Assembly (NCBI RefSeq): GCF_023806465.1
Contig: NZ_JAMSLS010000005.1
Span: forward strand, 1-64,000
Reading direction: 5' to 3'
DNA from: Thermomicrobium sp. CFH 73360
GTDB taxonomy: Bacteria > Chloroflexota > Chloroflexia > Thermomicrobiales > Thermomicrobiaceae
Length of the DNA: 64,000 bases
Part shown: one piece after another, positions 41,925 to 48,755 of the stretch
How positions within the stretch are numbered: position 1 is the first letter of the stretch
Layout: each line of letters opens with the position of its first letter
The notes under the pieces: generated by a model
Told to the model about the DNA's origin: nothing
What the model saw: only the letters and a program-made list of their open reading frames with translations
Database searches by the model: none
Made by a program: the position numbers and the translations under genes

Positions 41925-41997
<73 letters not shown>

Positions 41998-42017
41998 CCG
42001 CAAAAAATCAAGGAAAT

Positions 42018-44239: not shown

Positions 44240-45165
44240 ATGCCACGCCGTGGCCGATTTGAGGGGACACTCTATCACCGTGCCGATGGTCGCTGGGAGG
44301 CGAAGGTCGGTCTGGGTTTCATCAATGGTCGTTGGGTCCGCAAGTCGATCTACGGGCGCACCCGACGGGAGGTCCAAGAAAAACTCACCATCCTCCTTGC
44401 AAACGTCCAACGCAGCCTACCGGTCCTCGACGAACGCACAACCGTCGGCGAGTTCCTCACCCAGTGGCTCACTGCCATTCGCACCCGCCTGTGCCCCAAG
44501 ACCTTTCGGTCCTACGAGCAGATCGTTCGTTGACACCTTGTCCCCGTGCTCGGCGCCATACCACTTGCCAAGCTGCAACCGCACCGCGTGCAGTAGTTCG
44601 TGTCGTCACGGCTTGAACGTGGTCTGTCCCCACGAACGGCGGACTATTGCCGCATCGTCCTCCGTGGTCCGCTCAAGGACGCGGTCAAGAGGGGCTCTGT
44701 TGCCTGCAACTTTGTTGCACTGACGGATCCACCGCAGCGCGATCCTGCCCAGCATCGCGCCTGGATTGTCGAAGAGGCACGCCGTTTCGTCGCTACCGTC
44801 CGCGGGGCTCGACTCGAGGCGCTCTATACCGTCGCGTTGGCATTGGGCCTTCATCAAGGCGAGCTGCTGGGGCTCTCATGGGACAATGTCGACCTCGAGC
44901 ACAGGCTTCTGTGCGTCATCCAACAGCTGCAGTGGATCGGGAGGAAACCAGTGTTGCTACCACTGAAAAGTGGCTCGTCAGGACGCTTGCTTCGGGTTCC
45001 TGAGGCCCTGCGCGCTGCGCTGCGCCGTCATCGCGCTCGGCAGCGCGAAGAGCGCGACTGGCTGCTTGTCCGGCGTGGATTGGGTACAAATGGAACCTCG
45101 TGTTCACCACCTCCCGTGGTACGCCCCTGGATCCCAAAAAGGTCTGCTCCTAGTTCCACCGTTGG
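44240..45165 (+). pseudogene. tyrosine recombinase (integrase) remnant
   Basis: An integrase with an N-terminal AP2-like arm-binding domain (GTLYHRADGRWEAKVGLGFINGRWVRKSI), a core-binding domain (TVGEFLTQWLTAIRTRLCPKTFRSYEQIV) and part of the catalytic domain (EALYTVALALGLHQGELLGLSWDNVDLEH). Lesions: TGA at 44531-44533, TAG at about 44594-44596, a frameshift near 45085, a further stop near 45142, and loss of everything after about 45165, including the catalytic Tyr. The box I Arg (usually GLRxGE) is His in GLHQGE. It cannot be functional. Confidence 0.85.
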
Positions 45166-45448
45166 TGCATGCGTGCGAAAGAATGGCTCGTAGCGGAGCT
45201 GACTCAGTAAGCCAAGCAAACATCATGGCATTGGCAACCATCCCTATGAACTCAGGCCGATTGATCGCGCTGAAGGTCTCATCGAACTTGGCGAGTACCG
45301 CATTGATGCCTGCAGGACGACCACTCCCAGCCAAAAGCTCGACAGTCTCGAGCAGCTGCTCGATCACGTCGGCCTGGTCAACAACCCGCACCAGAAGACG
45401 CTCCAGCCGTTCCTGCTGCTCCGGAGTTCCATGGAGACCCATAGCCAT
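45160..45448 (-). pseudogene. DUF1641 protein, frameshifted and truncated
   Basis: The reading frame from 45448 gives a DUF1641-type helical protein (LVRVVDQADVIEQLLETVELLAGSGRPAGINAVLAKFDETFSAINRPEFIGMVANAMM). Near 45215 it shifts: the family sequence LGLLSQLRYEPFF continues one frame over, and then stops matching at about 45160, where the integrase remnant begins. DUF1641 genes commonly follow sulfide:quinone-reductase-like genes, as here (23-base gap). It is broken at two places. Confidence 0.7.
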
Positions 45449-45471: not shown

Positions 45472-46633
45472 CTAGTGCCCGAAGAGGTTCGCAAACCGGT
45501 ACCGCTCAAAGCCGACCTTGACCGCTCGAAAGGCCCGCATCCCACCCAGCAACCAGCAATCCGGTACTGTTGAACGGCCAAAAACCTTATCGGTAAAGTT
45601 GCACCAGACCGCGGCGCCGATATACCCTGTATCCATCACGCAGATTCCCACCATCTTGTACAACTCGCCAAGGAACGCCCCACGCTCCCGATCAATGATC
45701 TGGCCGATCACATGCTCTGCTTGGAAGTGTGCAAAGACACCGGCCATACCGAGCCTGATCGTGGGGGCTACCACATCGCCGATTCCCCACACCGTCTCGA
45801 ACCGAGGTGAACGCATCGAGGGAAGCAGAACGTCCATGTAGCCGTCCGCTGTTGTCAATAGCGAGTTCCTTATCGCCATCGCCTCGGGGCTCCGATGATG
45901 TGGCACCACGATGGCAAAAGTTGTACGCTAACTCCCGCCCGTCAGCCGCAACAATCACCCTTCTCCCAGGATCGTCCCGCACGTAGACGAAGCCCCGTTC
46001 AAAGTGCACCCCAAAGTCGTTGAGGAACCGGCGGAATCCCTCCACCATCTGCGGGCCGAACGTCTCCATCGGATCTTTCCAGGGATGGAACACCGTGATG
46101 TGCGTGCGCTCCACCACCCCGCGCTGCTCAGCAAGGTACTTCAGCATAAATGCGACTTCGAACGGCGCCGGCGGACACCGATACGGCCAGGAGAGCGGTC
46201 CTACCACCACCCGCCCACCAGCGAAGGTGCGCAACCGCTCGCGAAGTGCCAGCGCTGGGGCAAGCTCCCACGGGGCCTCGCATCCAGCCACGTCCGGCGT
46301 CTGCACGAGCTCCGCCCCTAACGCGACAATCAGGTAGTCGTACTCTACATTCCCCTGGTCGGTCTCGACGGTCTGCGTCTCCGGTCGGATACCTGTCACA
46401 GTCGCTCGCATAACACGTGTCCCGTAGCGTCGCTCCAGGGCCGCTAACGGGCGCCGAATCTCCTCTGGCTCCCGCTTTCCGACCGCTACCCAGAGATAAC
46501 TGGGACGAAACTCGTGCCACTCGCTCCGGTCGATCAGCACAACCTCAAACTCGCCCGGTCGCGCCCATTTGCCAAGCCGACTGGCGGCAACTGCCCCACC
46601 TGACCCTCCTCCGAGAATGACGACGCGTTTCAT
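45472..46633 (-). pseudogene. sulfide:quinone-reductase-like FAD protein with one frameshift
   Basis: A 387-codon FAD/NAD-type oxidoreductase like the SQR/FCC group. Part one (46633 to about 45925) has VVILGGGSGGAVAASRLGKW, the YDYLIVALGAE segment and a CPPAPFE block after LSWPYR. Part two (about 45922-45472) has GIGDVVAPTIRLGMAGVFAHFQAEHV and ends in FANLFGH. They join if one base is removed from the four-A run near 45922-45925, restoring NFAIVVPHHRSPEAM. No other lesion is seen, so either recent inactivation or a homopolymer sequencing error is possible. The start ATG follows GAGAGGGG. Confidence 0.75.
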
Positions 46634-46672
46634 AACCACCCCTCTCAAGACCCACGCGCCTGAGGGCTCCGG

Positions 46673-47204: not shown

Positions 47205-47873
47205 ATGATTGTCTTCCCGAGCGACAGTATCGAGACACCCGGCCACCTCGCACTTCCAGCATGAACCCCCATGCCAGGCGTCGTCGTGATTCAGGAGTGG
47301 TGGGGGCTTGAACCGCAGATGAAAGACGTCACTGATCGGTTCGCTGCCGAGGGTCTCGTCGCCCTTGCACCCATCCTCTACCATGCCAAGATCGGGACGG
47401 AGCTTGACGAGGCGCGTCATCTGGCCATGGAACTCGAGGGCGAGCAGGCAGTCGCAGAACTCGTTGCGGCAGCTCGGTTCCCCTTTCCCGCGACGATGTC
47501 GTTGGCTCCACCGTCAACGTGGTCGACTTCTACACGGGTGGCACGCTTTCCTTACTCGCCACCTACGCGAGTGCCTTCTTCGGGACTCCCGCCGTCTTTA
47601 CCTGGGCGTAACCCCAATTCGATCGAACAAGTGCGATCACTGCATTGCCCACTGCTCGGTCGCTCCGGCGAGGCGGATCTGGATATTTCGCCGAGTGAGG
47701 TAGAACGACTTCGTCGTTTCCTCGAGGCCGCGGCCACGCAGTTTGAACTCTAGAGCTACTCAAGCGCGCCACACGCCTTCTTCAATGACACGCGTGCCAG
47801 CTATCGTCCTGAGGCTGCAATCGAGGTATGGCGTCGTACGCTCGTCTTTCTCCGGCGCCATCTGGCCCGCTGA
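47205..47873 (+). pseudogene. dienelactone hydrolase remnant
   Basis: A 223-codon former dienelactone hydrolase. Recognisable blocks: PGVVVIQEWWGLEPQMKDVTDRFAAEGLVALAP, then in a shifted frame VVDFYTGGTLSLLATYASAFFGTPA (the nucleophile region, normally GFCxGG), then back in frame HCPLLGRSGEADLDISPSEVERLRRFLEAAATQFEL, and finally [19 protein letters not shown] ending at 47873. Lesions: TGA at 47262, TAG at 47751, at least two compensating frameshifts between about 47476 and 47600, and Tyr in place of the catalytic Cys. Clearly dead. Confidence 0.85.
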
Positions 47874-48290
47874 CACACACTCGTGCGCCGTGGCGGCCAT
47901 CGGCAGAGCCGGATCTCCTTTCTCGAACAGTGGTAAAAGGCGACGGTGCCACACTGGTGAGCTCACCGTACTGCCCCGGAAGGCACCAAGAAACTCGCAA
48001 TCTTCAACACCGCTCCTCAGCATTTCTCGCGTGCGGTTATTCGAGGTATCCCTCCTTCGAACCACCGACCACTGCAACTGAAACCGGTTGCTGCCACCAG
48101 AAGCGGATCTCCGCTCGTGAGAAATTCCGTTGGCCGCGTCTCGTCACTGCGAATCCGCACCAAGCGCATCGGCCATTCACAAGAAAGAATGCGCACTCCC
48201 TCAGGAAAACTCCCATACCAGTCGTCACGCTTGGGGTGGCACAATGCACACAGCGGACTGCTGCGTTGGTTCTCTGCGGGAGGCTATCGC
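47874..48290. other. no gene recognised
   Basis: About 415 bases between the hydrolase remnant and the PCYCGC lipoprotein gene. Frames on either strand lack domain resemblance. The last 12 bases contain the binding site of the lipoprotein gene (GCGGGAGGC). Confidence 0.4.
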
Positions 48291-48755
48291 ATGACGAACC
48301 GCTGGACCATAACCCGACGCCACTTCCTGATCGGTCTCGCCACGATGCCCGTCCTTGTTGCGTGTGGGCAAGGATCCTCCTCCAGTGATTCGGAACTCGT
48401 CGCGTGGCCTTCCCGGGATCGCTGGCCACCGATCTTCTACCAAGCCTCACCGGAAGCCCAGGAGGCGTACCGTTACGCGGCTGCACACCCCGAAATCCTC
48501 CAGTACTTCCCTTGCTACTGCGGCTGCGGTGAGCAGGGACACCGCTCGGTCCTGGACTGTTCGATTGAGGAGTTCCGTCCAGACGGTTCGGTTGTGCTGG
48601 GTCGCATGACCTTTGGCTGAGCGATCTGCATCGACATCACGCGTGACGTGATGCGGCTCACAGCTGAAGGGCGACCACTTCGGGAGATCCGTGCCTATAT
48701 TGACCAGACCTACAGCAGCTACGGTCCTGGCACGGACACGCCATGGCCGCCATGA
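48291..48755 (+). CDS. PCYCGC-motif lipoprotein, candidate selenoprotein (UAIC)
   Basis: A secreted lipoprotein of 154 residues if TGA at 48618-48620 is read as selenocysteine. The N-terminus has a twin-Arg-like RRHFLIGLATMPVLVAC signal with lipobox Cys25. The family hallmark FPCYCGCGEQGHRSVLDC (Cys75, 77, 79, 90) follows. Family members end in a second thiol motif, CGxC followed by an [IL]-[DE]-I-type helix; here it reads G-TGA-AIC-IDITRDV, so the TGA is the first Cys (residue 110) and Cys113 is retained. Translation then continues sensibly (GRPLREIRAYIDQTYSSY) to TGA at 48753. A hairpin follows the first TGA. No frameshift is seen. Family function is unknown; the cysteines suggest metal or redox chemistry outside the cell. 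Confidence 0.7.
48635..48653 (+). promoter_or_regulatory. SECIS-like hairpin after the PCYCGC-gene TGA
   Basis: A 6-bp stem (CATCAC with GTGATG), extendable by one G-C pair, encloses GCGTGAC or, with the extra pair, the loop CGTGA. The loop begins 20-21 nt after the TGA and has G within its first two bases, followed by T. This is the expected geometry of a bacterial SECIS element. SelB binding is inferred. Confidence 0.55.

Follow-up and report, generated by a model that had tools for sequence, protein, structure and literature searches.

OS_HP4 has been entered in two listings of selenoprotein families, and the source common to both is reportedly the 2007 study of the Olavius symbionts (Olavius algarvensis). 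One of these listings gives 'CYCXC family protein (OS_HP4), PF13798, UxxC' among selenoprotein families (PMC13188914), and in the other OS_HP4 is also entered with UxxC (PMC9312934). The corresponding NCBIfam model, NF041379 (OS_HP4_CYCXC equivalog), bears the name 'CYCXC family (seleno)protein'. A PCYCGC lipoprotein described from Parageobacillus thermoglucosidasius has, besides its lipobox Cys and the PCYCGC block, four other conserved Cys (PMC13068155). No functional lead for the PF13798 family was found in the literature searched.

Here we describe a PCYCGC gene with an in-frame TGA from a Thermomicrobia-type Chloroflexota genome, for which the first-pass annotation had suggested a possibly new selenoprotein family. 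Since PF13798/OS_HP4 is already on record as a UxxC family, the gene is a new, divergent member and not a new family. It shares with CYCXC/OS_HP4 the Pfam family (PF13798) and the UxxC placement of Sec, a likeness taken from the listings, but its product carries an N-terminal TAT/lipobox signal and its host is of the Thermomicrobia type. The match to NF041379 (60.8 bits) was under the curated cut-off of 90, which places the protein outside NCBI's narrower equivalog. With the Cys PCYCGC lipoproteins such as that of P. thermoglucosidasius it has in common the lipobox Cys, PCYCGC and the four further Cys; in contrast, those proteins have Cys and not Sec at the distal pair, and most Cys genes are without a SECIS-type hairpin.

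The PCYCGC gene and its surroundings

The window, i.e. the whole stretch of 64,000 nucleotides that was analysed, carries the PCYCGC selenoprotein CDS at 48291-48755 of the forward strand (154 residues plus the stop, TGA 48753-48755), with a Shine-Dalgarno-like GGGAGG, judged by its letters alone, at 48278-48283 (+), 7 nt 5' of the ATG. The translation begins MTNRWTITRRHFLIGLATMPVLVAC, and the signal region (48291-48365, +) contains a twin-arginine motif (TRRHFLIG) and the lipobox LVAC with Cys25, followed by the PCYCGC block. The TAT model TIGR01409 scored slightly below its cut-off on this region (13.6 vs 16.7 bits). The PF13798 profile matched residues 41-153 with 95.2 bits (gathering cut-off 25), thereby spanning the in-frame TGA at codon 110 (48618-48620, +), around which the frame reads ...MTFG-TGA-AIC-IDITRDVMRL... 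up to the terminal TGA at 48753. This codon aligns with the Cys of Cys homologues, so that the distal CxxC of PF13798 appears here as UxxC, with TGA replacing the first Cys and Cys113 following the putative Sec110. The open reading frame was present as it had been described, a PCYCGC lipoprotein with TGA at the distal CxxC, and its family-like sequence continues past the TGA for 44 more codons to a normal stop.

Alignment of 24 homologues showed C75, C77, G78 and C79 of the CYCGC motif (residues 75-79; 48513-48527, +) to be invariant, and the lipobox Cys was conserved in more than 90% of the alignment. The invariant Cys/Sec/His positions among the aligned homologues number seven, C110 and C113 included. 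The gene product would be an exported (the route presumed), lipid-anchored selenoprotein of the PF13798 family.

A sulfide:quinone-reductase-like (SQR-like) FAD gene at 45472-46648 (-) has a frameshift near 45905; it is intact (386 aa) in the congeners G006 and G001, and the window copy is either a pseudogene or an assembly error. A dienelactone hydrolase-like remnant at 47271-47870 (+) is interrupted by shifts of frame and by a stop. Pieces of an integrase-like ORF in two frames (44240-45193, +), with tRNA-Lys(ctt) not far away at 41925-41999, are possibly the remnant of an integrated element.

Conservation of the TGA and the Sec machinery

A search of 61 genomes, the window's own plus those of 60 relatives, found a PCYCGC gene in 16. 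The TGA is kept in the window genome and in five further congeners, that is in 6/6 congeners with a homologue, the congener proteins being 72-95% identical to that of the window; in the rest of the order most homologues have TGA and three have Cys. In a survey of the phylum 33 of 301 genomes had the family, with TGA as well as uninterrupted forms. A scan of named genomes, from which the best 80 loci were retained, included TGA forms in records with Gemmatimonadales, Rokubacteria and Deltaproteobacteria in their titles as well as in Bacillota, e.g. Salirhabdus, Melghiribacillus and Paludifilum. The combined set of 109 distinct homologues divides at the aligned column into 43 with TGA (Sec) and 66 with Cys; the TGA homologues are spread over several phyla, no Trp was seen at this column, and every homologue without TGA has Cys. 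Checking the column in relatives, as the first-pass annotation had proposed, therefore gave TGA in the congeners and Cys in non-TGA homologues.

The same data bear on the worry that the TGA is a Cys codon (TGC/TGT) altered by a mistake in sequencing or assembly. A frameshifted gene does lie close by in the window assembly, but the error is refuted by the occurrence of the same TGA in independent assemblies of the five further congeners, and its probability is negligible.

On the tree of Sec and Cys forms at least 11 changes are needed, of which the starred branches force 3, many of the forks being unresolved. One Cys form, L058 (genome G135), lies within a Sec clade, with L066 (G306) belonging to the same genus, and its hairpin has lost pairing (CATCACGCGCGACGTCATG); Cys and lost pairing inside a Sec clade are consistent with a recent Sec-to-Cys change.

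The window genome was found to encode SelA (541.8 bits), SelB (361.8 bits) and SelD (358.7 bits by profile score, with a TGA of its own in UAGK), along with tRNA-Sec with anticodon TCA (UCA in RNA), thereby confirming that the Sec machinery is all present. SelB was over the cut-off in 37 of the 43 PCYCGC genomes, Sec and Cys kinds alike, and in this set its presence did not separate the two kinds; the Sec genomes under the cut-off (G047, G048, G188) are drafts, 77-82% complete. The Sec-specific tRNA, together with the SECIS, argues against decoding of the TGA as some other amino acid, for instance Trp, by a recoded genome or by readthrough. We found no support for such a reading, homologues that lack the TGA all have Cys in its place, and the PCYCGC gene itself and other window genes terminate in TGA; decoding as Trp is extremely unlikely.

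A SECIS-type hairpin after the TGA

The hairpin CATCACG-CGTGA-CGTGATG at 48635-48653 (+) was present as first described. It starts 14 nt after the TGA and consists of a 7-bp stem and a 5-nt loop, CGUGA (48642-48646). No element was reported at this position by Rfam at gathering scores. Across 39 distinct TGA segments the stem was paired in 96.0% of cells, and both-side changes occurred in 5 of the 7 pairs. Double-changed cells numbered 27 against a shuffle mean of 6.7, and slid registers failed; shared ancestry inflates counts of this kind, here and below, but stem changes nevertheless recur in distant phyla, such as CATAGCC/GGCTATG in Salirhabdus and TATCGTG/CACGATG in an Anaerolineae MAG.

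Since the hairpin lies in coding sequence, synonymous recodings of each gene served as the control for stability. The mean hairpin energy of TGA genes was -8.0 kcal/mol as compared to -2.8 kcal/mol in their own synonymous recodings (p 9e-13), and for Cys genes the difference was slight (-2.8 vs -2.0 kcal/mol, p 0.002). Taken individually, 73% of TGA genes and 3% of Cys genes reached p<=0.05. Thus, the hairpin is maintained by compensatory changes and synonymous codon choice in TGA genes, and hardly in Cys genes. The residue at Sec+8, which is encoded by the loop, is Arg in 41/41 Sec genes and in 5/65 Cys genes, where it is mostly Gln. As the loop coincides with the Arg codon, this amino acid of the protein appears to be set by the RNA element. 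In translation, the hairpin, which begins 14 nt downstream of the UGA, would be recognised by SelB with Sec-tRNA(UCA), and insertion of selenocysteine at the UGA would yield U-x-x-C in place of the C-x-x-C found in most relatives.

If the TGA were a true stop, the product would be a truncated 109-residue lipoprotein or the gene would be decaying, as the broken genes nearby (the frameshifted SQR-like gene and the hydrolase remnant) might suggest. However, the family-like sequence after the TGA is under purifying selection, with dN/dS of 0.08-0.22 among congeners; dS in this part falls below that before the TGA, to some extent because of the hairpin. The TGA stands at exactly the same column in several phyla, the hairpin covaries and the genome has Sec machinery; a true stop is very unlikely. 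We rejected a true stop, a sequencing error and a recoded Trp on the congener TGA, post-TGA selection, SECIS, Sec machinery and the Cys column taken together. Decoding of the TGA as selenocysteine, proposed in the first-pass annotation, is borne out by the homologues, the SECIS covariation and the Sec machinery, and we put the probability of the predicted Sec decoding and placement in the PF13798 family at about 0.93.

A DUF1573-like gene near the PCYCGC gene in 26 loci reads ...EGC-TGA-PP... (e.g. L106:9292-9798, L103:9251-9805 and L089:9452 onward); 12 nt past this TGA lies a hairpin, for instance ACCATCG-GTT-CGATGGT, or GTCATCG-GTG-CGATGAC in L089. In L136 the gene has Cys at the TGA position and is without such a hairpin. 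It is a candidate GCU-motif selenoprotein, weakly related to OS_HP2; in those loci that were inspected by eye, the PCYCGC partner was a Cys form.

CcmH likeness, gene neighbourhoods and possible function

An AlphaFold2 model of the PCYCGC protein was confident (mean pLDDT 89), and Foldseek found no match to it in PDB below E 1. On the question of a CcmH-like three-helix fold, the two best structural matches were CcmH N-terminal domains, namely 2hl7 with Z 4.5 (75 residues) and 2kw0 with Z 4.0 (72 residues), for which the Foldseek E values were 1.4 and 2.2. The N-terminal domain of CcmH, a thiol oxidoreductase of cytochrome c maturation, has CxxC and a 'GkS..EI..Y...YG' stretch as PCYCGC does, and in G141 a CcmH gene lies directly upstream of the Sec PCYCGC gene; in contrast to CcmH, the PCYCGC protein has an additional CYCGC cluster. 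Pfam CcmH (PF03918) was not found in the window protein, PCYCGC being the sole match at E <= 1. CcmH homology was unconfirmed by hhalign with small and deeper alignments (10-14% probability), and a profile search of PDB sequences gave weak saposin/ferredoxin matches only (E 0.006 to 0.8). The likeness to CcmH is a lead on working mode only.

Copper-type genes were present near 8/19 Sec loci and 35/38 Cys loci and in 1/40 background windows, which came from nine Chloroflexota genomes and were not matched one-to-one with the PCYCGC loci. In Anaerolineae loci the genes that follow PCYCGC encode a cupredoxin of the CuA type, a membrane protein with Fer4_5 and a fusion of COX2 with cytochrome c, and in the Sec genome G141 the row reads CcdA, thioredoxin-like, CcmH, PCYCGC, Fer4_5/COX2 protein and COX2/cytochrome c protein. 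Neither the window nor its nearest long-flank relatives (L073-L075, L080) had the copper/cytochrome neighbours, so the role in this organism is one that we infer.

The PCYCGC selenoprotein is most likely an extracytoplasmic selenol/thiol redox protein, of which we infer the chemistry and the substrate. Outside the membrane, the selenol would most likely make the attack in a thiol/selenol redox centre, with the UxxC pair presumably catalytic, and the second invariant Cys/His set (C75, C77, C79, H84, C90) would be suited to a disulfide or a metal. The same selenoprotein could instead use its Cys/Sec sites mainly as a copper/soft-metal site, as a chaperone or sensor and not a redox catalyst. The seven invariant Cys/Sec/His positions speak for this, as do the Bacillaceae Sec genes, which adjoin a PF02583 metal-sensing repressor and CopA, and the Paludifilum Sec gene, which lies near SCO1/SenC, YtkA, DUF1775 and CopC-CopD. 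However, the neighbouring CcdA, CcmH and thioredoxin-like genes point to thiol redox, and UxxC is taken as a redox motif in reviews (PMC13188914); we regard a mainly metal-binding site as possible at well below even odds. The metal-binding and redox readings are compatible and non-exclusive.

For the redox protein, family neighbours suggest as likely substrates those cysteines of respiratory proteins that lie at copper or haem sites, in cupredoxins of the CuA type and in c-type cytochromes. A role in copper- or haem-site maturation, suggested by the family neighbourhoods, is tentative, at somewhat less than an even chance. The joint reading is speculative and rather unlikely to hold as a whole: PCYCGC proteins would be a CcmH-like class that serves copper (CuA) and haem sites outside the cytoplasm, as selenol/thiol reductants or as chaperones, in a CcdA-TlpA-CcmH relay, Sec and Cys having been exchanged repeatedly in several phyla and the SECIS loop dictating Arg.

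The predicted Sec decoding is about as well supported as computation permits. The Sec form of the barely described PF13798 family is thereby documented, with a covarying SECIS, in a Thermomicrobia-type genome and in several phyla, and in annotation Sec genes of this kind are readily cut short at the UGA. For the family, the neighbourhoods give a testable lead, namely that it may act in copper- or haem-site maturation.
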